Assembly: GCF_016901575.1 (NCBI RefSeq)
Contig: NZ_JACJKQ010000004.1
Coordinates: 62,001-126,000, forward strand
Direction: 5' to 3'
DNA: 64,000 bases
DNA from: Enorma phocaeensis
Lineage (GTDB): Bacteria > Actinomycetota > Coriobacteriia > Coriobacteriales > Coriobacteriaceae
The notes beneath the pieces were generated by a model, which saw only the letters and a list, made by a program, of their open reading frames with translations, made no database searches and had not been told where the DNA came from. Shown here piece by piece: positions 11,175 through 62,420 of this stretch. Position 1 is the first letter of the stretch; the number at the start of each line of letters is the position of its first letter. A program made the translations under genes and the position numbers.

Positions 11175-11314
11175 CGCATGCGGGCGCGGGGCGAGGCGTC
11201 ATGACGAAACGCGGCCGAGCCCCTCGCCTACCGGCAGCAATGAACAGGGCGGTCTGCAAGATCCTGCACAACCCCACGCGAAACGTTCGTGTGGGGTCGA
11301 CTGAGCGCGCGTCC

Positions 11315-11944
11315 CTACAGGGAGAACCAAGACTCCTGCCGCGCCGCACACCTCTGAGCAAAGGCATCGCGTGCCGCCTGAAGCTCTGCGCCGCCCCCGA
11401 TAGAGCGTGCGCCCTCGGGACACACCGCGACGCAGCGGAAGCACGAGACGTAGAGCCCGGCGTCGGTCGCGGCGGCGTCTGCAATGGTGGTGGCTCCTGT
11501 GGGGCAGGCACGCGCTCAGAGCCCGCAGGCGGTACATGCCCCGGCGTCCACCTCGGGCTTGAACGCAACGCCGCCAAACGCGCGGTACGGCCGGTTGCCA
11601 GGGGCTGCGGCGACGCACGCCGCCTCGGCTCCGTCCACGCGCGCAAGTTTCTCGACGACCTGCGCGGCAAGCGCGCGCACCGCCGCGAGGTCGTCGGCAT
11701 CCGGACGGCCCGCCGCCACATTGGTCATAAGCGAATGATGTGCCACGAAGGAGCCCAGCGCAACGGGCACGAAACCGCCTTCTACCAGCACGTCGGCCAT
11801 CTCGAGGAAGGTGTCGTCCACAGCACGGTTGCCATAGCTCACCACAAGCACCGCAGGTACGCCCTCCGCCGCACCCGCTTTGTTGAAGAATCTCTGCGGA
11901 TGCTTTATTTCGGCAAATATTGGTCTCTCGTAGCCAGCTCGTAG
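11315..11944 (-). pseudogene. Truncated flavodoxin/ferredoxin (EFR1-like) gene with in-frame TGA
   Basis: In one minus-strand frame the sequence reads AVLVVSYGNRAVDDTF, as in the C-terminal half of flavodoxin-like EFR1-family proteins. It then reads through DAGACTACGL, a TGA, and on to ARACPTGATTIAD and CFRCVAVCPEGA before a TAG at 11315. This is a two-[4Fe-4S] ferredoxin tail in which TGA replaces the third cysteine of the first CX2CX2CX3CP motif. The N-terminal flavodoxin half is missing: the frame is closed by a stop just above 11944. Together these point to a decayed gene. A lone selenocysteine codon is possible but unlikely given the missing 5' half. Confidence 0.7.
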
Positions 11945-12012
11945 CTAGCTGCATAGGCGTAGATAAAGGGAGCGAAACCCCCTTCCGCCCGTGTTCCAGC
12001 GCAATCCCTCTA

Positions 12013-12171
12013 CTAACATCCAAATGCATAGGCCGTAAAGTTCACACAGTGCGGATTAACGGAAACAAGACGTGCAGACAGCTTGGCATCAGCGGTAATC
12101 ACCGGAGTTCCCCCTTTTGCCAGCTCCACGAATGATGCGTCCGCGAGGCCAAGTTCTTTATCGATAGTATA
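12013..12171 (-). pseudogene. 3' remnant of a PIN-domain protein gene
   Basis: A 52-codon minus-strand frame ends at a stop at 12013-12015 and contains KELGLADASFVELAK, then TPVITADAKLSARL. This matches the C-terminal half of PIN-domain nucleases (VapC-like and related), where LADASFVE and TADxxL carry the last acidic residues of the active site. An in-frame stop lies directly upstream and no start or N-terminal half is present. It is a leftover of a gene deletion, sitting next to another truncated gene. The remaining bases of the 11945-12366 gap show nothing I recognise. Confidence 0.6.
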
Positions 12172-12366
12172 TCACTTTTGCATCAAAATACGAACATATG
12201 TTTCATTATTCAATATGTGAGGCGTCTCCTCAATTCTTTACTGCGCTGAAACATTGACTTAAGACACGTTGAAGTTCGAGCCATGCAGCCGAAGCGCACC
12301 GAAACAAGTGCTACCGTCTTGAAACCGAATCAGCCCAACGGGCGCCAACCGATGAAGGGAACGCAC

Positions 12367-12777
12367 ATGATCAAGCCCATCGTCACCTCCTTGATAATGC
12401 TCCGCCTGCCCTCTGAGGAGGCGACCCCCGACGACGCGCAGGTTGGCCAGGACCTTATCGACACGCTCGAGGCCCACGCGCATGAATGTGTCGGCATGGC
12501 GGCAAACATGATCGGCGTGCGCAAGCGCATCATCGTGGTACGCGACGGCACGAAGACGCGGCTCATGTACAATCCCGACATCATCAAGGGCACAGGTGAA
12601 TATCGCGCGCAGGAGGCCTGTCTCTCGCTTGACGGCGTACGTCCCGCCGCTCGCTGGCGGCGCATCAAGGTCTCGTATCTTGACGAGGAGTTCCATCGTC
12701 ACGTGCGAAGCTTCACCGGAGACGTTGCGCAGGCCATCCAGCACGAAGTTGACCACTGCAACGGAGTGATTATCTAG
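12367..12777 (+). CDS. Short peptide-deformylase-like protein
   Basis: Protein of 136 aa from the ATG at 12367 (AAGGGA five nt before; in-frame ATG codons at 12283 and 12352 are alternatives). It has the three deformylase motifs in order. Motif 1 is CVGMAANMIG instead of GxGxAAxQ, so the catalytic Gln position is Met. Motif 2 is QEACLSL, keeping the metal-binding Cys. Motif 3 is QHEVDHCNG, with both His ligands and the catalytic Glu. The family removes N-formyl groups from nascent proteins. This short, variant type is found in several anaerobes, usually beside a standard def, so the activity may differ. No partner genes are apparent. Confidence 0.78.
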   Translation: MIKPIVTSLIMLRLPSEEATPDDAQVGQDLIDTLEAHAHECVGMAANMIGVRKRIIVVRDGTKTRLMYNPDIIKGTGEYRAQEACLSLDGVRPAARWRRIKVSYLDEEFHRHVRSFTGDVAQAIQHEVDHCNGVII

Positions 12778-40434: not shown

Positions 40435-40487
40435 AACATGCAAGTTTTTACGTTTTTCGGCTTAAAACGTAAATAATTGCATGTTTT
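40435..40487. repeat. Dispersed ~53-bp palindrome, copy 1
   Basis: AACATGCAA and TTTACGTTTT arms are mirrored by AAAACGTAAA and TTGCATGTT around a 7-nt centre. In reverse complement it matches the palindrome at 59098-59150 at about 48 of 53 positions. It may be a REP-like element or a bidirectional terminator. The rest of the gap to 40760 contains imperfect GCATCGAT-type repeats and no gene. Confidence 0.8.
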
Positions 40488-50485: not shown

Positions 50486-51067
50486 CTAGAACAGCTCATC
50501 GAGCGTCGCCTCGATGAGCGCGTCGACGGTGCGCTCGAGGGCGTCGGGATGCAAAAAGCGCCGATAGAGCAAGGTGAAGGCGAGCGACATCTGCAGGTTT
50601 TCCACCGCGTGCTCGTCCACGTTGGGCGAGACGTCGGCCACCTCGCCCACGATCCATCGCACGAGGCGGTCGTCGGTGGCGGGGTCGAAGCTGCGTTCCT
50701 GCGGAAAGCTGCGCACCAGGTAGGCATACTCCTTCTCGTCCGCGATGCGGAAGATGTTGCGCTGCGACCGCCATGTGCGCTGAAACCAGGCGCGCATTCC
50801 GTCGCGGCCGAGCCTGCCGCCCGCGGCGACGCGTTCGTCCTCGAGCTCATCGACCGCGTGCTGGCGGTTCTCCATAAGCATGGCGTAGATGAAGTCGCCC
50901 TTCGAGGGAAAGAAGCTATAGAAGGTCCCCTTGGCAATGCCCACCGCCTGGGCGACCTGCTCGACGCGCAGCGACCGCACGCCACCCGAGACCAGCTGCC
51001 TCCAGCCAGCCTCGATCATGCCTCGGTAGAGCTCGTCTTTGCTTTGTTGAGAGAAGATGGCCGGCAT
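50486..51067 (-). CDS. TetR-family transcriptional regulator
   Basis: Protein of 193 aa. An N-terminal helix-turn-helix, GVRSLRVEQVAQAVGIAKGTFYSFFPSKGDF, spans about residues 29-59, with the TetR-typical TFYxxFPxK; the ligand domain follows. It lies eight bp after the DHA2 exporter gene in the same direction and is very likely its co-transcribed repressor, acting at the palindrome 52595-52621 upstream of the exporter. Ligand unknown. Confidence 0.92.
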   Translation of the reverse strand: MPAIFSQQSKDELYRGMIEAGWRQLVSGGVRSLRVEQVAQAVGIAKGTFYSFFPSKGDFIYAMLMENRQHAVDELEDERVAAGGRLGRDGMRAWFQRTWRSQRNIFRIADEKEYAYLVRSFPQERSFDPATDDRLVRWIVGEVADVSPNVDEHAVENLQMSLAFTLLYRRFLHPDALERTVDALIEATLDELF

Positions 51068-51075
51068 GGGGGCTC

Positions 51076-52560
51076 CTAGCGCGCCCGCGCAGAGCGGGCG
51101 CCGCCCGCTGACTGCCTGCGCTCACGGTAGTTGAGCCATTCACGTACCAGCGCGAGCACGACGCTTGCGCCCACGATCAGGGCAAGAACGTGAAAAGCGA
51201 CGTGCATGCCGTCCATGAAGACGTCCGGCCTGCCCTCGACGTAGCTCGTCACGGGATACCCGATGGAGCTCGACATGCCGCCGTAGAGCAGGGCGGAGCC
51301 GATGGTGATGCCCAGAGACTGTCCGAGGTAGCGCATGAGGTTGCCCAGCGACCCCACGAAGCCGAGCGAGCCCTCGGGGGCATGCCCCATGATGAGCGAG
51401 TTGTTGGGCGCCTGGAAGATGGAGCTGCCGAGCGAGGTGAACATCATGCAGGGAATCACCATGAACAGCGGGGTGTCGACCGCAAGAAAGCCCAGGATGG
51501 TGAGGCCGCAGGTGTAGATGGTCTGCCCCACGAGCGTGGGCCTCTCACACCCCACCTTGTCGGAGACCGCGCCCGAGATGGGGCCGCAGATGGAGTTCAC
51601 CAGCGGGTAGCACGCCATGATGAGGCCCGACACGCCCGCGCTGATGCCGCGCGCCTCTTGCAGGTAATACGGGAAGATGAACGTGAACGCCGACATCGCC
51701 AAAAAGACGAGCGACATGTTGACGAGGTCGATCACGAAGCGCACGTCGCGAAAGACGCCGAGCGTCACGAGCGGGGACGTGGCATGGTTTTCCACCACCA
51801 CGAAGGCCACGAGCAGGGCCGCTCCCACGGCGAGCATGATGAGCTTGCTCGCATCGACGCCGCTCTCGAGCAAGGTGATGGAGGCGAATATCAAAAGGAT
51901 CGACGGGACCAGCAGCACCGCGCCCAGGGCGTCGAACGCCGGGCGATGCCGGGGCGGGCGATTCTCGAGCACCTTGATGCCGACGAGCAGCGAAACGATG
52001 CCGATGGGGATGTTGATGATGAAGATGAACTCCCACGGGAGCACCGAGACGATGAGGCCGCCGAGCGTGGGCCCGCACATGGCGCCCAAGGCCGTGAAGG
52101 TGGCGACCAGGCCGAGCGCGCGGCCGCGGCTATCGGGAAAGGTCTCGGTGATGATGCCCTGGTTGTTGGCAAGCGACGCCGCCCCGCCGAGCGACTGGAC
52201 GGCGCGCGACACCACGAGCATCTCGAGCGTTCCCGACAGCGCGCACAGCGTAGAGCCCACCGTAAAGAGCGCCACGCCGATCTGGAAGATGCGCACCTTG
52301 CCAAACATGTCGCCCAAGCGCCCAAACACGAGCAGGGCGGCGCAGGTGACCACGCTGTAGATGCTCGCGACCCACTGGATCTGCGCCATGTCGACGCCGA
52401 GCTCGACCTGCATGGACGGCATCGCCACATTGACGATGGTACCGTCGAGGATCTCCATGAAGGTCATGCACAAGATGACGGCGAGCACGAGCCCCCGGCC
52501 CCGACGTTTCGGCGCCAGAGCCGGGTCCTGCGCCTCCGCCGCCGTAGATGTCTCTGCCAT
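51076..52560 (-). CDS. DHA2-family (EmrB/QacA-like) multidrug exporter
   Basis: Protein of 494 aa with about 14 hydrophobic segments. Signature D1 is MEILDGTIVNVAMP, motif A is VFGRLGDMFGKVRI, and motif C is LGAMCGPTLGGLI. This is the 14-TM proton-driven drug exporter type. Its start follows GAGGGGCG, and a near-perfect operator overlaps its promoter. Downstream is the TetR regulator gene. Substrates cannot be predicted. Confidence 0.93.
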   Translation of the reverse strand: MAETSTAAEAQDPALAPKRRGRGLVLAVILCMTFMEILDGTIVNVAMPSMQVELGVDMAQIQWVASIYSVVTCAALLVFGRLGDMFGKVRIFQIGVALFTVGSTLCALSGTLEMLVVSRAVQSLGGAASLANNQGIITETFPDSRGRALGLVATFTALGAMCGPTLGGLIVSVLPWEFIFIINIPIGIVSLLVGIKVLENRPPRHRPAFDALGAVLLVPSILLIFASITLLESGVDASKLIMLAVGAALLVAFVVVENHATSPLVTLGVFRDVRFVIDLVNMSLVFLAMSAFTFIFPYYLQEARGISAGVSGLIMACYPLVNSICGPISGAVSDKVGCERPTLVGQTIYTCGLTILGFLAVDTPLFMVIPCMMFTSLGSSIFQAPNNSLIMGHAPEGSLGFVGSLGNLMRYLGQSLGITIGSALLYGGMSSSIGYPVTSYVEGRPDVFMDGMHVAFHVLALIVGASVVLALVREWLNYRERRQSAGGARSARAR

Positions 52561-52712: not shown

Positions 52713-53699
52713 TCAAGACGTCGCCGCCCCCAGCTGGGACAGGCGCTGCCGGTAGCGTGCATAGGCGTCGTTCCACCCATCGTAAGCGGCGTCCTGCCGG
52801 TGATCGGCGATGTCGTAGGAGCCGCGGAGGATCTTTCCCACGGCGCTCGTCACCTTCTGCGCCCCGGAGAGGTTCAGGTGGTCTCCGGCGTCGTAGGTCT
52901 CGCTCGACCAGTCGATCTCTACCTTCGTGTCCCCCACATTGAGGTCGTAATAATCGACCATAAGCTCCGAGGCCGCCTGCGCCATGCCGCGATGACGCGC
53001 CATGTTCCAGTTCACCGTGCTCGGCGTGCTCACCAAGACGAGGCGGGCGCCGGCGGCGTCGCACATGCGCTTGATCTCTTGCAGGTACAGCCAGTTGAAG
53101 CGAGACAACCTCTGGACATCGTCAGTTTCCTGCATGTAGGTCGTGGCATCTGCCGGCTTCACCTGGGTGGCGTGGTCAAGTCGAAATCCCTTGAGGTCAT
53201 CGGCCCACGTGGCGCGCACGGGGCCCACGAAGTCGTCGACGGTGAGGCTCTTCCAGCGGTTGTGGTACTCGAAAACGGGAAACAGGTCGGAAAGCGCCCG
53301 CATGGCCGCGTCTCCGACAGACATGGGCGAGAAGATGCAGTTTGTCTCGAGCACCACCACGCGGGGGCCCTGGTTCTCGAGCGCGCGGGCGAGCAGGGAT
53401 GTCGTGTAATACAGCCGCTGAGCACTCGTCGCGCACACGTATGACGTGATGCCCTGCTCGCCCCAGAGCTGCAGGGGCGAAAACGAGCTGAACGCCTCGC
53501 TGTCACCGAGGAACAGCACGTCGATGGTGTCCGCAGGCTCGCCCATGACGCCGTTTGCCGCGGCGTTTATCTGACCGAACTCGGTCTGGTTGTTCTTTGG
53601 CATGACCACGCGGGACGATAGGGCAAGAAGCGCGATCACCGCGGCCGCTATGGCAAGCGCGCCCAGCACGCGGCGGGCGCCACGGGCGACACGCATCAT
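52713..53699 (-). CDS. SGNH-hydrolase-like membrane-anchored protein of the dlt-like operon
   Basis: Protein of 328 aa from ATG 53699 (AAGGAG seven nt before). One N-terminal membrane segment (about 9-30) is followed by an extracellular domain with the SGNH first block VLFLGDSEAFSS (catalytic Ser) and a distal AGDHLNLSGAQK (catalytic His). This is the architecture of DltD/AlgX/PatB-type acyl-transfer helpers, in which a MBOAT protein passes the acyl group and the SGNH partner places it on the polymer. It closes the five-gene operon. The acceptor polymer is unknown. Confidence 0.8.
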   Translation of the reverse strand: MMRVARGARRVLGALAIAAAVIALLALSSRVVMPKNNQTEFGQINAAANGVMGEPADTIDVLFLGDSEAFSSFSPLQLWGEQGITSYVCATSAQRLYYTTSLLARALENQGPRVVVLETNCIFSPMSVGDAAMRALSDLFPVFEYHNRWKSLTVDDFVGPVRATWADDLKGFRLDHATQVKPADATTYMQETDDVQRLSRFNWLYLQEIKRMCDAAGARLVLVSTPSTVNWNMARHRGMAQAASELMVDYYDLNVGDTKVEIDWSSETYDAGDHLNLSGAQKVTSAVGKILRGSYDIADHRQDAAYDGWNDAYARYRQRLSQLGAATS

Positions 53700-53902
53700 G
53701 AGGGGTCTCCTTTCTTGTGAGATGTGCGGCAGCAGATGCGGCACGGCAGACGCGGCCGCCATGTGACGGGTGCCGCCATGCATGGCCTCCGCGCGCCGGA
53801 AGGGCGGACAGGGGCGTCCCCGGCAGCAAGGGGCCCTTGCCGCGGCAGACCCGCCCGGCGGCAGGGCGCCTCAGGGCAAAAGGCCGGCGAGCCCGCCCGC
53901 CG

Positions 53903-55492
53903 CTAGAACTGGGCGTACATGGGGTCGACGGGAACATAGGAGCCGCCGTAAGCGCCGAAGATCACGATGACGAAGGCGAGCGCGACCATCGCCGCCGCGC
54001 GTACGGGGACGGGAAGCTCCCACGCGCGCCGAACCGGATGCGCCCCGCGCTCGCGCAGGCGCCCCACGGCCGCGAGGACCGCCACGGCACAGGCGACCAC
54101 GCCGAAGTCCGCCGCGTCCATCCCCATCGAAAACACCGTGCCATCCGCAAAGGAGGCAAGCGAGAAGCCGCTGGCAAGGGTCCCTAGCAGCCCGAGCGCC
54201 TCCGGAGCGCTCGATGCGCGGAAGATCAGCTCGCCGATAAAGATCACGACGAGGGTCCTCCCCCGCTGCCAGGCGTGCCACGCCGCCCCGTCGTGGTCGA
54301 TGCCGAGCCTCGGGCAGAGCCGCTCGGCCAGCGGCGCCATCAGGCCGCCGAGCCATATGAGCACGAAGTAGTACGCGCCAAAGAGCAGGTACTGCCCGCC
54401 TGCCCCGTGCCACAGGCCGTTTCCAAACCACACGCATGCAAGCGCCACGCCGCTTGCCGCCAGCGGCCCCATGCGATTGCCCAGAAGATGCCTCGACCCG
54501 TTCGTGAGGCGCTTTATCGGCTTGGAGAGCGACACGGGATAAAACACGTAGTCGCGAAACCATGCGCCGAGCGTCACATGCCAGCGCTGCCAAAACTCAG
54601 AAGCCGTGCGCGAGGCGAAGGGCTGGCGAAAGTTCTCGGGAAGGCGCGTGCCAAAGATGCGCCCCACGCCCACGGCAAAGTCCATGGTGCCGGAAAAGTC
54701 GCAATAGAGCTGTATGGTGTAGAGCACCGCCGCCAGCGCGACCACGCCGCCATCGACCGATGCGCTCCCGTCGAAGACCGTCTTCACAAACACGTTGACG
54801 CGGTCTGCGACGATGAGCTTCTTGGCGAGGCCCCAAAGCGCGCGCGCCGTCCCCCCGAAGAGGTTCTCGGCCGTGACGGGCCTGCCCGACCACAGCGAGC
54901 ACGCCGTCTCGTTGTAGCGCGCGATCGGACCCTCCATGATCTGGGGGAAGAACGCCAAAAACAGCGCGAGGCGCACGGGGTTGTGGTCGGCGGGCGAGGT
55001 CTTGCGATAGACATCGACCACATACGATACCGCCGAAAGCGTATAGAACGAGATGCCGATGGGCACGCCCAGCCTCAGGCCGCCCTGAGGGACCTCGATG
55101 CCGAGCGGCGCCAGGAGCGGTGCCGCGACGGCCTCAAAAAAGGCAAGGTATTTCAGGGCGGCGAGCACTCCGAGGTTGGCGACCACGCACGCCGCGACCG
55201 CGGCGCGCATGTAGCGCGCGAACCGGCGCTTGACGACCCTTCGGTCGACGTCGGGGTCGCGCATCTCGGCGGCCCGGCGCCGCTGGAGCTCTTCGAGCAC
55301 GAGCCCCGTCGCCCACACAGAAAGCGTCGAGAACAGCAGGAATGCCAGGAGCTTGCCGCTGATGCTCCAGAAGAAGGCATAGCTTGCCGCCAGGAGCACC
55401 AACGGGCGCGCCCGCCGGGGCGCAAGCTGGTAGAGCGCCACCGCGGCGGGCACGAACAGCCCCAGCACCATCAGCGAGAAATACGATTTCAT
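53903..55492 (-). CDS. DltB-like membrane-bound O-acyltransferase (MBOAT)
   Basis: Protein of 529 aa with about 11-12 hydrophobic segments. It shows the MBOAT signature around the invariant His: GNGLWHGAGGQYLLFG at about residue 360, and the upstream FAGPIARY-like stretch MEGPIARYNE. In dlt systems DltB carries the acyl group from the carrier protein across the membrane. It starts 25 bp after the carrier-protein gene. The operon context makes a DltB role more likely than an alginate or peptidoglycan O-acetylase role. Confidence 0.85.
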   Translation of the reverse strand: MKSYFSLMVLGLFVPAAVALYQLAPRRARPLVLLAASYAFFWSISGKLLAFLLFSTLSVWATGLVLEELQRRRAAEMRDPDVDRRVVKRRFARYMRAAVAACVVANLGVLAALKYLAFFEAVAAPLLAPLGIEVPQGGLRLGVPIGISFYTLSAVSYVVDVYRKTSPADHNPVRLALFLAFFPQIMEGPIARYNETACSLWSGRPVTAENLFGGTARALWGLAKKLIVADRVNVFVKTVFDGSASVDGGVVALAAVLYTIQLYCDFSGTMDFAVGVGRIFGTRLPENFRQPFASRTASEFWQRWHVTLGAWFRDYVFYPVSLSKPIKRLTNGSRHLLGNRMGPLAASGVALACVWFGNGLWHGAGGQYLLFGAYYFVLIWLGGLMAPLAERLCPRLGIDHDGAAWHAWQRGRTLVVIFIGELIFRASSAPEALGLLGTLASGFSLASFADGTVFSMGMDAADFGVVACAVAVLAAVGRLRERGAHPVRRAWELPVPVRAAAMVALAFVIVIFGAYGGSYVPVDPMYAQF

Positions 55493-55517
55493 GATTGCTG
55501 GATTCGCTCCCTAGCGC

Positions 55518-55751
55518 TTAGAAGTCCTCGTCGCGCAGACGTTGGACCATGGCCCAGATCGCCTCGAGCGAGTTGAAGTTTGCCGCCACGATCTCGACGG
55601 CAGGGATCGAGATGTCAAATGTGTCTTCGAGCTCGGATGTGAGCGCAAGGATGGTCAGCGAGTCGAGCACGCGCGCATCCACCAGATCGGTGCGACCGCG
55701 GTAGTCCTCTCCCGACTTGAGGTCTTCGAGAATGTCCAGAATGGCGTCCAT
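55518..55751 (-). CDS. DltC-like acyl/aminoacyl carrier protein
   Basis: Protein of 77 aa from ATG 55751 (GAAAGGATC upstream). It has the four-helix carrier-protein pattern with DARVLDSLTILAL: the Ser of the DSL motif (about residue 32) is the phosphopantetheine attachment site. Length and sequence resemble DltC. It would hold the aminoacyl group activated by the adenylation enzyme while the PLP enzyme and MBOAT act. The 180-bp gap before it has no gene. Confidence 0.85.
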   Translation of the reverse strand: MDAILDILEDLKSGEDYRGRTDLVDARVLDSLTILALTSELEDTFDISIPAVEIVAANFNSLEAIWAMVQRLRDEDF

Positions 55752-55933
55752 GATGCGATCCTTTCGTTTGAGGGATACCAGACGCTGCCGCCGCGGCGTC
55801 CAGGAAAAGGCGATGGGACGGGAGGGCGCCCCGGCGGGGAGGAGAGATGCCGGATGCGCCCCCGCGCCAGAAGGGGAAGTGTGCGGAGCGGCAACCATGG
55901 GCTGAAAAACGAGCCGCTCCGCGGGGGAAAGCG

Positions 55934-57298
55934 TTATCGGGGGCAGACGGACGGCGTGTTGAGCACGTCGGTTCGCAAGGCGTCGCGCACCAGGCGCGGC
56001 TCGCCACCGGAATCGAGCACCACCACGCGGGGAAGGTCGCGGCTGAGAAACAGCGAGATGCCCTCCGTCATGCAGTAGGCGCCCACGTTGGCGAAGGCGA
56101 GCACGCGCCCCTGCCCCATGCCGACGAGCGGCATCTGCTTGGCCAGCACGTCATTGACCGTGCAGAGCGACCCGAAGATGCTCCACGGCTCGGCCTCTCC
56201 GCCGGCGGCATCGCCTAGAAGGTGGCAGGCGGGCTGGTGCATGGCCATCGACTGGCCAAAGTAGACGAGCTGGTGAATGCCTCCGTCGACGATGGCGTAG
56301 CGCTCGCCACGGTTCGTCTTGGTGTCGACCACCCGGGTGAGATAGGTGCCGCAGCTCGCGACCAGGCTTCGGCCGACCTCGAGCGTGACCTTCCCGGCGA
56401 ACGCCATCTTGGAGAGCGCCTCGGAAAAGGCGGAAAGATACGCCGCCTCGTCGAAGGAGTCGGCTTCGAAATAGGCAACCGGCAAGCCGGGGCCATACTC
56501 GAGCTCGGTCGCCGTCCAGCCATACCCCTCCTCGAGCGACGCAAGGAAGCGATCGAGCTTTTCCAACTCTCGAGACACGCGGCGCGGCGAGGTCTTCTGC
56601 GTGCCCGAGAAGAACTGGATGCCGCGCAGGTCGATCGTCTCGGACGTCCCGTAGCGGCCCACAAGCTCGCGCACCAAGGCGGCGTCGAGACCAAACTGGT
56701 TGCCGCTGGTAAGACGCAGCAGCACCGGCGTGCGCACGCCGCGGCGGCGGGCGCAGAGCTCGACGAGCTCCATCTGCGCCGCGGACTCGATGGTGAGCAC
56801 CGCCCGCCCCGAGCCGTCCACAAGCGCGGCATCGACGGTCTCGGCGTCCTTGTGGACGCCGGAGACCACGAGCTTCTCGCTGGGAACGGAGACCTCGCGG
56901 CAGATGCGATACTCGCCTGGAGAGCATACCTCGACGCGATCGACCAGCTCGACGAGCCCCGGCAGCACGAACGTGTTCGCCTTCATGGCATAGCACAGCC
57001 CCGTGCCGCGAGGAAGCATCGAGCGCAGGAAGGAGGCGCGCTCGCGCAGCACCCGCTCGTCAAAGATATAGAGCGGGGTGCCGAAGCGGTCGGCAAGCGC
57101 GAGCAGCGCGTCATCGTCAAGCAGGGCATCCCCCCTTCGCCACGACGCGCCGCCACCAGCCCCCTCGCACGCCGATGCGACGGGGCGCCCGGGCTCGCCC
57201 ATGGAGGCCGCCGCAGCATCGAGGCGCCCCGCGAAGGAGGCCTCGCTTGAAAGCGGGGTCGTCACCGTCCCACGGGATCGAAATGCAGATGAATACAT
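55934..57298 (-). CDS. Fold-III PLP-dependent decarboxylase-like enzyme of the dlt-like operon
   Basis: Protein of 454 aa. It belongs to the diaminopimelate/ornithine decarboxylase fold. PLP Lys is in LCYAMKANT (about 98-107); the EVCSPGEYR, SGVHKDAE and NQFGLD segments line up with the barrel. LEVGRSLVASCGTY replaces EPGRxxVAxAG, and SLCTVNDVLAK supplies the conserved Cys of the second domain. The usual HIGSQ reads QFFSGTQ, and the glycine loop reads YGPGLPVAYF, so it is not an ordinary LysA. In butirosin synthesis BtrK, a relative, decarboxylates a carrier-bound aminoacyl group; a similar job here is inferred. Its ATG overlaps the stop of the adenylation gene (TAATG), so the two are coupled. 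Confidence 0.8.
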   Translation of the reverse strand: MYSSAFRSRGTVTTPLSSEASFAGRLDAAAASMGEPGRPVASACEGAGGGASWRRGDALLDDDALLALADRFGTPLYIFDERVLRERASFLRSMLPRGTGLCYAMKANTFVLPGLVELVDRVEVCSPGEYRICREVSVPSEKLVVSGVHKDAETVDAALVDGSGRAVLTIESAAQMELVELCARRRGVRTPVLLRLTSGNQFGLDAALVRELVGRYGTSETIDLRGIQFFSGTQKTSPRRVSRELEKLDRFLASLEEGYGWTATELEYGPGLPVAYFEADSFDEAAYLSAFSEALSKMAFAGKVTLEVGRSLVASCGTYLTRVVDTKTNRGERYAIVDGGIHQLVYFGQSMAMHQPACHLLGDAAGGEAEPWSIFGSLCTVNDVLAKQMPLVGMGQGRVLAFANVGAYCMTEGISLFLSRDLPRVVVLDSGGEPRLVRDALRTDVLNTPSVCPR

Positions 57299-58938
57299 TA
57301 GAGGCTCCTTTCGGATGCAGGCCCGCCGGTCGCCGATGGCGCCGTGCGGGCCGATCGGCGCGGGCGCGATGAAAGCTCAAGCAGGCGGGCGCGGTCGACC
57401 TTGCCGTTTTTCGTGAGCGGCATCGCGTCGACGCGTGCGATGCGCCCCGGCACCAGCGCGGCGGGAAGATAGCGCGCGACCCCTTCGCGGAGGCGAGACG
57501 CCTCGGCGTCGCCTTCAAAGAAGGCACAGATGCGCTCGCGGCGGGCGTCGTAGACGCAGCGGCACCGCTCTACCCCGGGCTGGCGCTCGAAGGCGGCATC
57601 GATCTCTTCCAGCTCGACGCGGTGCCCCAGATGCTTGACCTGGTTGTCCGCGCGGCCGCTAAAAAAGAGCTCGCCGCCCGCCCCCACGCGGGCAAGGTCG
57701 CCCGTTCGATAGAACGTTTCGGGCAGGATGGCTGCGCCGGGGCGCTGGACAAACGCCTTGCGGGTACGCTCCTCGTCGCCCACATAGCCGAGCGCGATCG
57801 CCGAGCCGCCGACATAGAGCTCGCCCGTCTCGCCCTCGCCCGCAACAGGCTCGCCCCGCTCGTCGAGCAGCAACACGCGCCGGTTGGGAAACGGCCGCCC
57901 CAGCGGGATGCCCTCGGCGTAGGAACGGGCGGGGACGAGCACATGGTAGGTACAGTTGCACGTGACCTCGGTGGGCCCGTACAGGTTTACAAAGCGGGCG
58001 CGCGGCAGATGCTTCCGCCAGCGGCACAGATGCTCATACGGCATGACCTCGCCGCTGAACATGACGGTGCGCAGCAGGGGCAGCCGCCCGTACTCAAGGC
58101 CATGCAGGCGAGAGAGCAGGCAAAGCGCCGCAACCGCCCAGATGAGCGTCGTCACCCGATGCGTGACGAGAGCGTCCACGAGCTCGGCCGGACTTGAGAA
58201 CAGGCGTCGCGGCAGGACCACCAAGGTGGCGCCGGCGGCCATGGAGCCATAGATATCCTTCACCGAGACATCGAAGTCGAAGGGCGCCTGGTTGCCCAGC
58301 ACCTCGGTAGACGAGATCTCCAGGGTCCGCACGAACGTCGAGATGAACTCGACGATGGCGCGATGGCTGACCGCCACGCCCTTGGGCGTACCCGTCGAGC
58401 CCGACGTGAACAAGACATAGGCGGGATCGGTGTCTACCGTCTCGCGCGCGATGGCATCGAGGCGCTCGGAGTCGATGGGACCTCCAAGAAGGTCCTCGGC
58501 GACAAGCACGTCGTGGTCGCTAAAGACCTCGCGCGCAAGCGACTGGCACGCGCGGTCCGCCACCACAACGGGATCGCCCAGGACCTCGGCGATGAGGCCC
58601 GCGCGAAGCGCCGGCACCGTCGAATCGACGGGCACATAGAACCCGCCCGCGGCAAGCGTGCCGAGCATCGTCGCCAACGCCGGCACGCCCTTCTCCGCAA
58701 ACACGATCACCGGGCTGCCGGCGACATTCGCCTTCGCCAACGCGGTCCCTACGCTCCGGACAAGGCCGAACAGCTGCCCGTAGGTGTACGAGCCGACCTC
58801 GTCAACCACGGCGACCTTCGCCGGATGCATAAGGGCCCCGCGCTCGAGAAAACACAGAGCGGTGTGGCGATATCTCTGGTGCACGCCGACCCTCAGGTCC
58901 AGGACCTGTTCGGCCTCCATTGCCCCACGTGTGTACAT
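57298..58938 (-). CDS. DltA-like amino acid adenylation enzyme
   Basis: Protein of 546 aa from ATG 58938 (GGAGGAGCGC upstream). All adenylation-domain core motifs are visible: A3 VLFTSGSTGTPKG, A4 NQAPFDFDVSVKDI, A5 NLYGPTEVTC, A7 YRTGDLARV, A8 GRADNQVKHLGHRVELEEID, A10 LTKNGKVDRA. The layout without condensation or carrier domains resembles DltA (D-alanine:carrier ligase). The amino acid cannot be read with certainty from the pocket. It is the first gene of the operon and is directly coupled to the PLP enzyme gene. Confidence 0.9.
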   Translation of the reverse strand: MYTRGAMEAEQVLDLRVGVHQRYRHTALCFLERGALMHPAKVAVVDEVGSYTYGQLFGLVRSVGTALAKANVAGSPVIVFAEKGVPALATMLGTLAAGGFYVPVDSTVPALRAGLIAEVLGDPVVVADRACQSLAREVFSDHDVLVAEDLLGGPIDSERLDAIARETVDTDPAYVLFTSGSTGTPKGVAVSHRAIVEFISTFVRTLEISSTEVLGNQAPFDFDVSVKDIYGSMAAGATLVVLPRRLFSSPAELVDALVTHRVTTLIWAVAALCLLSRLHGLEYGRLPLLRTVMFSGEVMPYEHLCRWRKHLPRARFVNLYGPTEVTCNCTYHVLVPARSYAEGIPLGRPFPNRRVLLLDERGEPVAGEGETGELYVGGSAIALGYVGDEERTRKAFVQRPGAAILPETFYRTGDLARVGAGGELFFSGRADNQVKHLGHRVELEEIDAAFERQPGVERCRCVYDARRERICAFFEGDAEASRLREGVARYLPAALVPGRIARVDAMPLTKNGKVDRARLLELSSRPRRSARTAPSATGGPASERSL

Positions 58939-59097: not shown

Positions 59098-59150
59098 AAC
59101 ATGCAATTGTTTACGTTTTATACCGAAAAACGTAAATAGTTGCATGTTAA
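59098..59150. repeat. Dispersed ~53-bp palindrome, copy 2
   Basis: AACATGCAA and TTTACGTTTT arms are mirrored by AAAACGTAAA and TTGCATGTT, as in the copy at 40435-40487 but in opposite orientation. It lies in the 397-bp gap between the histidine kinase stop and the adenylation gene start, where it might end kinase transcription or carry a regulatory site. The remainder of the gap (58939-59097 and 59151-59335) shows no gene. Confidence 0.8.
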
Positions 59151-59335: not shown

Positions 59336-60970
59336 CTAGCTGGCGGCAGGCGAGCCCTTTTCCTCCTTGGCATGCAGGGGCAGGGTGATCACCAGCACGG
59401 TCGACCATGGCGATGCGGGCCCGTCGTCCAGGCGAATGCAGCCGCCCATGAGCTCGACGGCGCGGCGGGCGATGGAAAGCCCCAGCCCCGTGCCTCCGCC
59501 TGCGGCGCGCGCGGTGTTCTCCGTCACAAAGGGCTCGAAGGCTCGGGCGGCAAGCTCGGGCGAAAAGCCCTGGCCGGTATCCGCCACCGTCACCTCGACA
59601 TGGCCACCTTCACCCTGCTCGCAAGCGACACGAATGCGAATGCCGGGCTCGTTGTGGGACCAGGCGTTGTCGATAAGATTCACGAGCATGCGACGGAACA
59701 GCTGGTTGTCCACGAGCGCGCGCAGCTCCCCCGCCGCCGCCACCTCGAGCGTGCAGCCCGCCTGCTCCACCGCCGGCGCCGCGTCATCCGCCACCGAACG
59801 CACCAACGAGCAGACGTCGGCAGGCACCAGATGCGGCTCGTAGTCGGGGTGCTCCATCGTGGCGAAGCTGAACAGCGTGTCGATGAGGTCTCCTGCCGCA
59901 GACGCCCGCTCGTACATGGCGCGATGGTAGCCGTCGGCCTTCTCGGCGGGAATGCGGCCCTCGCAGAAGGCCTGCGCATATCCGCGTATCACCGTAAGCG
60001 GGGTCTTCAGGTCGTGCGAGACGTCGGCTATGATGCGCTGGCGCTCAAGGCGCGCCTCGGCAAGCTGGTCCATAAGGTCGACGAAGTTGTCGTAGGTTCT
60101 CGCGAGCTCGCTCGGGACTTGAGAGCTCGTCGCCGCATCGCCCTCGCCGCGCCGATAGGCATCGATCGCCGCATCGAGCGGACGGGCCGCCCGGCGCACC
60201 AGGCGCATAAGGAGCCACACGGCAATGCCGGTGGCGACGAGCATCACCGGGATGCCTAGCAGCGTGATGCGTCCCGCATCGTCGAGCGCCTGCTGGTAGC
60301 GCACATCGCTCACCATGGGCGCAAGCAGCACCAGCGTGCGCGAAGCTCCCGAAACGGTGACGTAGTCGTAGCGCTCGACGGTCAGCTGCGCATCGTAGAC
60401 GCCCTTGATGAGGTCGAACTCGCGCTGCGTCAGGGAGTCGCGGTCGGCGAAGAGGTCGCCGGCAAGGATGTCGAGGTCCTCGTCGAGCACGCACCACGCA
60501 TCGACGTTCTTGCTGTAGCCGTCGTACCTGTCGTACGAGCAGCGCAGCACGCGATAGCGCAGTCCCTCCTCGGTGCGCTCTTGAAACACCTCGTAGAACG
60601 AATCCTCGTCATAGTCGTTGATCAGCGAGAGGTCGGAGGCGCGAACCTTGCCGGCGACCTTCTCGCTCGTGGCATAGAGCCGCGTGCCGCCGTCGTTAAA
60701 TATGATGATTTGACAGTTGCGGAAGGCATCCGACTGGAGCACGGTGAAGTCGTCCTGCTCAAGGGCGTCCTCGTGCTCGAGCACCATCTCCATAGAGGGA
60801 AACGCGCTTGCAAGCAGGGCGTCGCCGGCACGGCCGAGCGCGCCCAGCAGCACGACCAACACCAAGGCATAGGCCACCACCACCGTAAGGCATCTCACCG
60901 CGAGGCTCGTTCGCAGCGCCTTCCAAGCGCCTCGAATGCGCGGGGATGCCGAGCCGCGCCTCCTAGCCAT
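59336..60970 (-). CDS. Sensor histidine kinase
   Basis: Protein of 544 aa. TM1 is at about 24-46, followed by an extracellular sensor of about 190 residues, TM2 about 235-260 (LLGIPVMLVATGIAVWLLM), a HAMP-like linker, and the kinase core. The H-box IADVSHDLKTPLT carries the phospho-accepting His; N-box NLIDNAWSH, G1 DTGQGF and G2 GTGLGLSI form the ATP site. The ATG overlaps the response-regulator stop by 8 nt. It is upstream of the dlt-like operon on the same strand, so it may sense envelope stress and control that operon; this is positional inference. Confidence 0.92.
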   Translation of the reverse strand: MARRRGSASPRIRGAWKALRTSLAVRCLTVVVAYALVLVVLLGALGRAGDALLASAFPSMEMVLEHEDALEQDDFTVLQSDAFRNCQIIIFNDGGTRLYATSEKVAGKVRASDLSLINDYDEDSFYEVFQERTEEGLRYRVLRCSYDRYDGYSKNVDAWCVLDEDLDILAGDLFADRDSLTQREFDLIKGVYDAQLTVERYDYVTVSGASRTLVLLAPMVSDVRYQQALDDAGRITLLGIPVMLVATGIAVWLLMRLVRRAARPLDAAIDAYRRGEGDAATSSQVPSELARTYDNFVDLMDQLAEARLERQRIIADVSHDLKTPLTVIRGYAQAFCEGRIPAEKADGYHRAMYERASAAGDLIDTLFSFATMEHPDYEPHLVPADVCSLVRSVADDAAPAVEQAGCTLEVAAAGELRALVDNQLFRRMLVNLIDNAWSHNEPGIRIRVACEQGEGGHVEVTVADTGQGFSPELAARAFEPFVTENTARAAGGGTGLGLSIARRAVELMGGCIRLDDGPASPWSTVLVITLPLHAKEEKGSPAAS

Positions 60971-61727
60971 CGAGCCTATACCCCAGGCCGCGAACGGTCT
61001 TGATGTAGCGCGGACGCAGCGGGTCGTCCTCCAGCTTGGCGCGAATGTTGGAGATATGCACCATCACGCTGCTTGCGCCGCCAATCGCCGGCTCGCCGTT
61101 GACCGCAGCGTAGAGGTTGCCCTTGCTGAGCACGCGGCCCTGCGCCGCCATGAACGCCGCCATGATCTTGAGCTCGGCGGCGGTAAGGGGCACCGTCTCG
61201 CCACGCTTCGACAAGGTGAGGCGATGCGGGTCGAAGACGAGCTCGCCGCATGTGATGGCGTCGGGCGATGTGGGCGCGGCGGTCTCGCCGGCGCCATCCG
61301 CTGCCTGCACATCCGTCGCCGGGGCGTCGTCCTCCCCTGCGGCGCCAGCAGACTCACGGCCCTGCTCGCGGCGGCGGATCATCGCACGGATGTAGGCGGT
61401 CACCTCAAGCGGGTCGAACGGCTTTGTAATGTAGCCGTCGGCCCCGGCATCGAGGCCCACGATCTTGTCTGCCGGCATGCTGCGCGCCGACACGATCACA
61501 ATGGGCACGTCGCTCGTCTTGCGCGCGGCCTTGATGAAGTCGTATCCGTTCATGCGCGGCATCATGATGTCCACAAGCGCCACGTCGACCTCGTGAGAGC
61601 GAAGCAGCTCAAGCGCCTGCTCGCCGTCGGGAGCCGAAAGCACCTCGTAGCCGCTGCCGGACAGATAGAGCGTGAGCAGCTCGACAATGTCCTTGTCGTC
61701 TTCAGCAATCAGCACGGTCTTGGGCAT
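60963..61727 (-). CDS. OmpR-family response regulator
   Basis: Protein of 254 aa. The receiver has Asp53 (LVDIMMPRMNG) as phosphorylation site, DD at 10-11, Thr/Ser84 region VIVSARS and Lys KPFDPLE. The C-terminal winged helix ends VRGLGYRLDG. Between the two domains is an Ala/Gly/Glu-rich linker of about 40 residues, longer than the common 10-15. It is the first gene of the two-component pair. Confidence 0.94.
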   Translation of the reverse strand: MPKTVLIAEDDKDIVELLTLYLSGSGYEVLSAPDGEQALELLRSHEVDVALVDIMMPRMNGYDFIKAARKTSDVPIVIVSARSMPADKIVGLDAGADGYITKPFDPLEVTAYIRAMIRRREQGRESAGAAGEDDAPATDVQAADGAGETAAPTSPDAITCGELVFDPHRLTLSKRGETVPLTAAELKIMAAFMAAQGRVLSKGNLYAAVNGEPAIGGASSVMVHISNIRAKLEDDPLRPRYIKTVRGLGYRLDG

Positions 61728-61923: not shown

Positions 61924-62420
61924 CTACTTCACTGCTTCGAGAATCTCAAAGATCTCGTCGGCGTCGAGCACCTTCGGGCATGTGGGGATGATGATCGTGG
62001 AGTCGGCGACGGCGCGCAGCATGTCATCGGTGCCCTCGCCGGAGATGCCCATCTCGGAGAGCGTGGACGGCAGGCCGATCTCGGCGATGAACGCCTCGAG
62101 CGCGTCGATACCCGCGGCGGCGAGCTCCTCGGCGCTCTTGCCCGCGGCGTCGATACCCCAGACCTCGGTGGCGAAGCGCGCGAACTTCTCGGGCGCGCCG
62201 GCCATCATGTGGCGGTACATCGTCGGATGGATCACCGCCAGGCCGAAGCCGTGGTTGCAGTCGGTATAGGCGCCGAGCTGGTGCTCGATCATGTGCGCCT
62301 GGAAGGCCGTGGCCTTGCCGATCTTCAAGATGCCGTTCTCGGCCATGGCGGACGCCCAGAAGAGCTCCCCGGGCAGCGAGCGCGCGGCGCTCAGATACGC
62401 CAGCCCGCGGCGGCCGCGCA
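61924..62420 (-). pseudogene. C-terminal fragment of an iron-type alcohol dehydrogenase gene
   Basis: The minus-strand frame ending at 61924 matches the last 150 residues of iron-containing alcohol dehydrogenases of the YqhD/BDH type: ARSLPGELFWASAM, HMIEHQLGAYTDCNHG (metal-binding His), then EVWGIDAAG. Homology starts near 62420; the N-terminal Rossmann half and a plausible start are gone. The upstream frame runs into an unrelated signal-peptide gene, so the two remnants were joined by a deletion. Confidence 0.8.

Follow-up and report, generated by a model that had tools for sequence, protein, structure and literature searches.

In the genome of Enorma phocaeensis, a dlt-like operon of five minus-strand genes (52713-58938) probably makes and exports an amino-acyl group other than D-alanine, by way of decarboxylation, on a carrier protein, of what is most likely L-aspartate. 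The window, that is, the whole 64,000-nucleotide stretch analysed (positions 62,001 to 126,000 of contig NZ_JACJKQ010000004.1), belongs to a draft genome of 2.36 Mb in 108 contigs, and coordinates below are those of the window. D-alanylation by DltABCD is the textbook route by which Gram-positive bacteria tune their surface charge and resist cationic peptides. The five genes are the following.

57298-58938, minus strand: DltA-like stand-alone adenylation enzyme with the specificity code DVKIMSLCNK (PF00501; TIGR01734; alignment to GrsA and DltA)
55934-57298, minus strand: fold-III pyridoxal phosphate (PLP) decarboxylase of the BtrK/VinO, carrier-bound type (PF02784 and PF00278; BtrK match; Cys-Thr motif)
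55518-55751, minus strand: DltC-like carrier protein of 77 amino acids with the phosphopantetheine serine in LDSLTI (PF00550)
53903-55492, minus strand: MBOAT acyltransferase with the catalytic histidine (LWHGAGGQ) and the C-terminal tyrosine shuttle PMYAQF (PF03062; TIGR04091)
52713-53783, minus strand: membrane-anchored SGNH acyltransferase, DltD-like in role, with GDSE and DAGDHLN (AlphaFold, Foldseek, conserved residues)

All five open reading frames (ORFs) are present in the order given by an earlier reading made from the sequence alone, and base 57298 is indeed common to the stop codon of the adenylation gene and the ATG of the PLP gene (TAATG). The likely start of the adenylation gene is the ATG at 58938, which is preceded by AGGAGG. 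Pfam returned matches to AMP-binding, to the N- and C-terminal domains of Orn/DAP/Arg decarboxylases, to PP-binding and to MBOAT, and none for the SGNH protein, which was recognized by AlphaFold and Foldseek. Together, Pfam and NCBIfam identify four of the five products, with scores that fall well short of what the DltA, DltB, DltC and LysA models require.

In the proposed pathway, the adenylation enzyme would activate a small dicarboxylic amino acid (L-aspartate, via its side-chain carboxyl, is the likeliest) and load it onto the carrier. The PLP enzyme would then strip the free α-carboxyl from the carrier-bound substrate, leaving a β-aminoacyl (β-alanyl) thioester. The MBOAT protein would move this group to the tyrosine of its own C-terminal hexapeptide, from which the SGNH protein would transfer it in ester linkage to a hydroxyl group, on a sugar or polyol, of a polymer in the cell envelope, adding positive charge. 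We infer the substrate, the order of steps, the product and the acceptor polymer from the features described below and from two precedents, which the sequence-only reading passed over together with the tyrosine shuttle of the MBOAT protein. In the purified AfcQ-AfcK-AfcP system, L-aspartate is loaded by its side-chain carboxyl and decarboxylated on the carrier to β-alanine by the PLP enzyme, and β-alanine is not activated directly (PMC12186527). VinN-VinL-VinO carries out the equivalent reaction with 3-methylaspartate (PMC11284099). The operon resembles an AfcQ-type triad joined to export and transfer enzymes, and a β-alanyl ester on an envelope polymer is therefore the most likely product. 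The sequence-only reading had proposed a β- or γ-amino acyl group from a possibly dicarboxylic amino acid; the dicarboxylic part is favoured by the adenylation code, which fits L-aspartate best and thus makes the β-alanyl product likelier and a γ-amino acyl one less likely. Its core idea, decarboxylation on the carrier followed by transfer to an envelope polymer, is supported in that it passes every sequence test run. A broader statement, that gut Clostridia and Coriobacteria carry a widespread, new envelope modification of β-alanyl (or other decarboxylated amino-acyl) esters delivered by a self-shuttling MBOAT protein, is favoured only slightly over its negation.

The gene set is conserved well beyond E. 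phocaeensis. In a survey of 298 Coriobacteriia genomes, about 38 encode a genuine PLP-enzyme relative (at least 35% identity, E < 1e-60), and a clear gap separates these from the LysA matches (~30% identity, E near 1e-22). A wider scan of 84,980 species brought the number of relatives to more than 541; the 80 best of these were retained and include Collinsella, Olsenella-like organisms, Agathobaculum, Pseudoflavonifractor, Faecousia, Ruminococcus bromii, Acetobacterium, Lacrimispora, Anaerocolumna, Adlercreutzia and Streptococcus suis. Gene order was counted with profile models built for this analysis in 119 loci from Coriobacteriia and Clostridia and also from Streptococcus suis. The exact order of adenylation enzyme, PLP enzyme, acyl carrier protein, MBOAT and SGNH is found in 87 of the 119 loci, across two phyla, and the first three genes are clustered in nearly all of them. 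Most remaining loci are reshuffled, ended by contig edges, or surround a single core of adenylation, PLP and carrier genes with additional MBOAT-SGNH pairs. Because 87 loci keep an identical order, the five-gene set is no coincidence, and the possibility raised in the sequence-only reading that the PLP gene is a chance neighbour is ruled out. No fusion of the PLP gene with the adenylation or the carrier gene was found among the related loci.

Two further observations concern these loci. At L071, L074, L075, L077, L091, L125 and L150 a single core is accompanied by extra MBOAT-SGNH pairs or by up to four SGNH genes, which suggests that several acceptors are served by one loading module. A PLP enzyme 45% identical to that of the window is encoded at 11267-12397 of MT836540.1; this record bears the label Bacteriophage sp., but a bacterial contig is a likelier source than a genuine phage.

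The adenylation enzyme matches the AMP-binding family PF00501 with 216 bits and the DltA model TIGR01734 with 262 bits, below the cut-off of 559.85. Its specificity code, read after aligning the enzyme with GrsA and with four structures of DltA, is near-invariant in 114 loci as DVK(I/V/T)(L/M)SLCNK; positions 239, 301, 330 and 331, and hence K239 and S301, are invariant wherever readable, C330 and N331 being read from the ungapped motif GPTEVTCNC. Val236 occurs in about 96% of the loci, with rare Ile or Leu. The corresponding DltA code is DLM(T/V)xCTVA, and the D-alanine pocket formed there by Leu236, Met239 and Cys301 is replaced by V236, K239 and S301, so that the D-alanine-selecting Cys301 is a serine in the operon enzymes. 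Lys239 is the carboxylate contact seen in Glu-type domains such as that of SrfA-A. The nearest pocket is that of the Ser code DVWH(L/M)SLVDK (PMC12283262), but with Lys for Trp at 239, and this likeness indicates that the substrate is small. Val236 and Ser301 also recall enzymes that activate β-amino acids: VinN has Phe at 236 and Ser at 301, with D235 binding the β-amino group, and A236V was fixed in TycA evolved for β-Phe (PMC11253843). Judged by the code, the substrate is most likely a small dicarboxylic amino acid, with L-aspartate as the first candidate and L-glutamate as the second.

The best sequence match of the PLP enzyme in the PDB is BtrK, followed by LysA. The enzyme scores 161 bits against the LysA model TIGR01048, below the cut-off of 297.9, and the residues with which LysA binds its substrate (His in HIGSQ, Arg and Tyr in RPxLY, Glu in CESGD) are absent. 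Neither RPxLY nor the THxxIxTG loop, a cover of the LysA active site that is deleted in the operon enzymes, is found in any of the 119 loci. A motif of the LC[TS]xxD type surrounds the catalytic Cys in all 119 (the search pattern admitted T, S, A or N after the Cys, and the sequences read had T or S). The Cys-Thr pair is common to BtrK, a VinO-type enzyme encoded beside methylaspartate mutase, the exosortase-A enzymes and a Streptomyces enzyme linked to an acyl carrier protein. The carrier and adenylation genes adjoin the PLP gene in the operon loci, as they do in the BtrK/VinO-type reference loci. Phylogenetic trees split the operon enzymes from LysA, with 100% bootstrap for either group. A separate, higher-scoring LysA-type gene is present in 19 of the 20 genomes searched (275 bits in the window's own genome), and the idea that the PLP gene serves as lysA was rejected on this ground. 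Clustering inside LysA, which would have spoken against the sequence-only reading, is not seen.

The downstream genes carry catalytic residues, among them those noted in the sequence-only reading. The carrier ORF was first delimited at 126 amino acids, a start that is too early by comparison with homologues; with the start set at 55751 the protein has 77 residues, contains the phosphopantetheine serine and scores 32 bits against the DltC model NF003464 (cut-off 68). The MBOAT protein matches PF03062 with 47 bits and the DltB model TIGR04091 with 137 bits (cut-off 375). Its C-terminal end fits the acyl-shuttle motif FXYXXF: the pattern [P/F/L][I/M/L]Y[A/N]x[F/Y] forms the exact C-terminus of 112 of 112 homologues. 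In canonical Dlt systems, DltB moves D-alanine from the carrier to the tyrosine of the DltX microprotein (FXYXXF), and DltD acts next; where acyl-CoA is the donor, as for PatA, the tyrosine motif is at the C-terminus of the MBOAT protein itself (PMC12148441). The tyrosine-bearing tail therefore marks the system as a Dlt-type carrier front end combined with a PatA-type, self-contained shuttle MBOAT. A separate DltX was not noticed, although no search was aimed at it. The AlphaFold model of the SGNH protein has a mean predicted local distance difference test score of 92.2 and a membrane helix at residues 25-60. Foldseek returned SGNH hydrolases for this model, with the DltD chains 6pfx and 3bma also among the hits, and no family model matched; G93, D94, S95, D298 and H302 (GDSE and DxGDHLN) are conserved.

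Several points weigh against on-carrier decarboxylation of L-aspartate in an envelope-modifying operon. Lys239 occurs in homoserine codes too (PMC12283262) and is therefore no proof of an acidic substrate. The β13-β14 loop of the adenylation enzyme shows no visible shortening, unlike that of VinN and the exosortase-A ligases, which makes side-chain activation of aspartate less secure. The AlphaFold model of the PLP enzyme does not separate the two relatives, the Z-scores of LysA 2p3e (40.4) and BtrK 7ru7 (39.5) being tied in this comparison. A long stem leads to the PLP clade, a warning of long-branch effects, and the exact placement of this clade among the carrier-type enzymes is unsure. As to the acceptor, the genome has two LtaS-like sulfatases, which score far below the LtaS cut-off, and the teichoic-acid polymerase family PF04464 was not found in it.

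Four alternative explanations were weighed. The operon may load L-glutamate, so that a γ-glutamyl carrier would give a 4-aminobutyryl (GABA) group for the polymer. BtrK, the closest PDB sequence, decarboxylates a γ-glutamyl carrier, and Lys239 is known from Glu-activating domains, but Glu codes have Gly301 and the operon pocket is small and Ser-like, with Ser301 and Leu322. Moreover, a GABA thioester left unprotected closes on itself to pyrrolidinone, and the operon has no conserved ligase that would protect it, so this version is considered unlikely. If meso-diaminopimelate (DAP) were loaded instead and decarboxylated at its far end on the carrier, the product would be a lysyl group and the system one of carrier-based lysylation. 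Such a substrate would suit activation of the α-carboxyl, with D235 and Lys239 gripping the distal carboxylate, and the fold and homology of the PLP enzyme to LysA would be accounted for. The residue after the catalytic Cys, however, is acidic in LysA (Glu) and ornithine decarboxylase (Asp), where it contacts the distal amine, and the operon enzymes have Thr or Ser there, which argues for a substrate that probably has no distal amine and against DAP. As the adenylation pocket also seems too small and a separate LysA already supplies free lysine, DAP is a very improbable substrate.

The remaining two concern the PLP reaction itself. The enzyme may act on a free amino acid, for instance converting aspartate to β-alanine, which the adenylation enzyme then loads; building blocks often come from operon neighbours, and the sequence does not fix the order of steps. 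Lys239 would then be left without a carboxylate to bind, the Cys-Thr motif is one that carrier-acting enzymes have in common, and the AfcQ system does not directly activate β-alanine (PMC12186527), all of which makes this order of events distinctly improbable. It is very improbable, too, that the PLP enzyme is a racemase or some other non-decarboxylating enzyme and the operon in effect a divergent dlt that attaches an ordinary (D-)amino acid. The general likeness to DltABCD and a weak Ala_racemase_N match of 31 bits speak for such a role; the decarboxylase C-terminal domain with its catalytic Cys and Asp is nevertheless kept in 119 of 119 loci, Ser and Lys replace the D-alanine-selecting Cys and Met of DltA, and a separate DltA-like gene is present in 9 of the 38 Coriobacteriia operon genomes.

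Comparison with known systems places the β-alanyl pathway proposed here between two groups that have so far been seen apart. The operon shares with DltABCD the stand-alone adenylation enzyme, the DltC-like carrier, the MBOAT protein with its catalytic histidine and the SGNH acyltransferase in a single operon. It differs in the additional PLP decarboxylase, in the code (Lys239 and Ser301 rather than Met and Cys), in scores well below the DltA, DltB and DltC cut-offs, and in the shuttle tyrosine, which is on the MBOAT C-terminus rather than on the DltX microprotein. The operon is thus Dlt-like in its working, yet outside the Dlt family by membership. With the butirosin pair BtrK-BtrI it has the PLP fold III and the Cys-Thr motif in common, and BtrK acts on carrier-bound glutamate; BtrK, however, is about 24% identical to the operon enzyme in structural alignment and builds an antibiotic side chain. 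The butirosin carrier is loaded by BtrJ, a ligase of another family. AfcQ-AfcK-AfcP (AFC-BC11, Burkholderia) and VinN-VinL-VinO (vicenistatin) likewise combine an adenylation enzyme, a carrier and a PLP decarboxylase, and in them decarboxylation of aspartate or 3-methylaspartate on the carrier gives a β-aminoacyl thioester (PMC12186527, PMC11284099), as would happen in the operon. In contrast, they feed a lipopeptide or a polyketide, have neither MBOAT nor SGNH proteins, and differ in the code of the adenylation enzyme, the operon lacking both the shortened β13-β14 loop and Arg331. The exosortase-A ligase, decarboxylase and acyl carrier protein (TIGR03098/TIGR03099) are encoded by three adjacent genes of the same types within polysaccharide clusters, but the operon proteins score 185 bits against 592 for TIGR03098 and 161 against 478 for TIGR03099, the ligase code is DASTATMRSK, and there is no MBOAT-SGNH pair. 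O-acetylation systems of the PatA/PatB and AlgI type have an MBOAT protein with a C-terminal tyrosine hexapeptide and a separate SGNH protein; their acyl donor is acyl-CoA and a carrier protein plays no part (PMC12148441), whereas the operon encodes a carrier to be loaded. A separate ligase-decarboxylase cassette was seen at L180-L202, L218, L254 and L255 in Actinomycetota metagenome-assembled genomes, Sinorhizobium and Burkholderia, and the ligases read from it have the code DASTATMRSK and a short β13-β14 loop.

No description of the operon, and nothing relevant on β-alanyl teichoic acids or on an MBOAT protein accompanied by a decarboxylase, was found in the open-access literature, the only literature that could be searched. 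If the proposed pathway is correct, abundant gut bacteria such as Ruminococcus bromii, Agathobaculum and Collinsella relatives, and Acetobacterium too, bear an unreported amino-acyl envelope group, and carrier-bound decarboxylation, known from antibiotics, is united with MBOAT-SGNH polymer acylation. The predicted decoration would be new, widespread and easily tested, with a simple in vitro assay for every step.

The distribution of dlt relative to the operon was also recorded. A DltA above the curated cut-off is absent from 19 of the 20 operon genomes searched, the exception being Streptococcus suis SSHP-D; the Thermophilibacter operon genome (G673) has a sub-threshold DltA-like gene (450 bits). 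Within Coriobacteriia, a DltA-like gene is present in 9 of the 38 operon genomes and in about 54 of the 260 others (hand count). This co-occurrence is near chance and does not indicate a simple replacement, so that a role of the operon as a plain dlt substitute within Coriobacteriia is unsupported. In Streptococcus suis SSHP-D (L129) a canonical dltA (745 bits) lies ~25 kb from the operon on the same contig; the operon of this strain was possibly gained horizontally. L171 and ~60 other Coriobacteriia genomes carry DltA-like proteins that form a group with scores of 430-563 bits, in most cases slightly short of the DltA cut-off, and the code of the L171 member, DLYVLCTVAK, diverges from the usual DLM..CTVA.

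Directly upstream of the operon are two regulatory genes.

59336-60970, minus strand: sensor histidine kinase adjoining the operon, its probable regulator (HisKA and HATPase_c)
60963-61727, minus strand: OmpR-type response regulator, the partner of the kinase (Response_reg and Trans_reg_C)

The kinase probably regulates the operon. The response regulator is co-conserved with the operon in both phyla: in 47 of 117 loci, one at least 40% identical to that of the window is encoded at most 5 kb from the adenylation gene. A 45-bp palindrome, ATGCAAnnnTTTACGTTTT-N7-AAACGTAAAnnnTTGCAT, stands just upstream of the operon (59101-59145) and again at 40438-40482. Changes between copies mostly compensate across the two arms. 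There are 13 full copies in the genome, and convergent genes flank some of them; for these reasons the palindrome is taken for a hairpin-forming repeat, probably of the dispersed kind, rather than for an operator of the adenylation gene. On its other side the operon is followed at once, on the same strand, by a TetR-type regulator and a DHA2/EmrB-type efflux pump (50486-52560), a pair that most of the related loci examined do not share.

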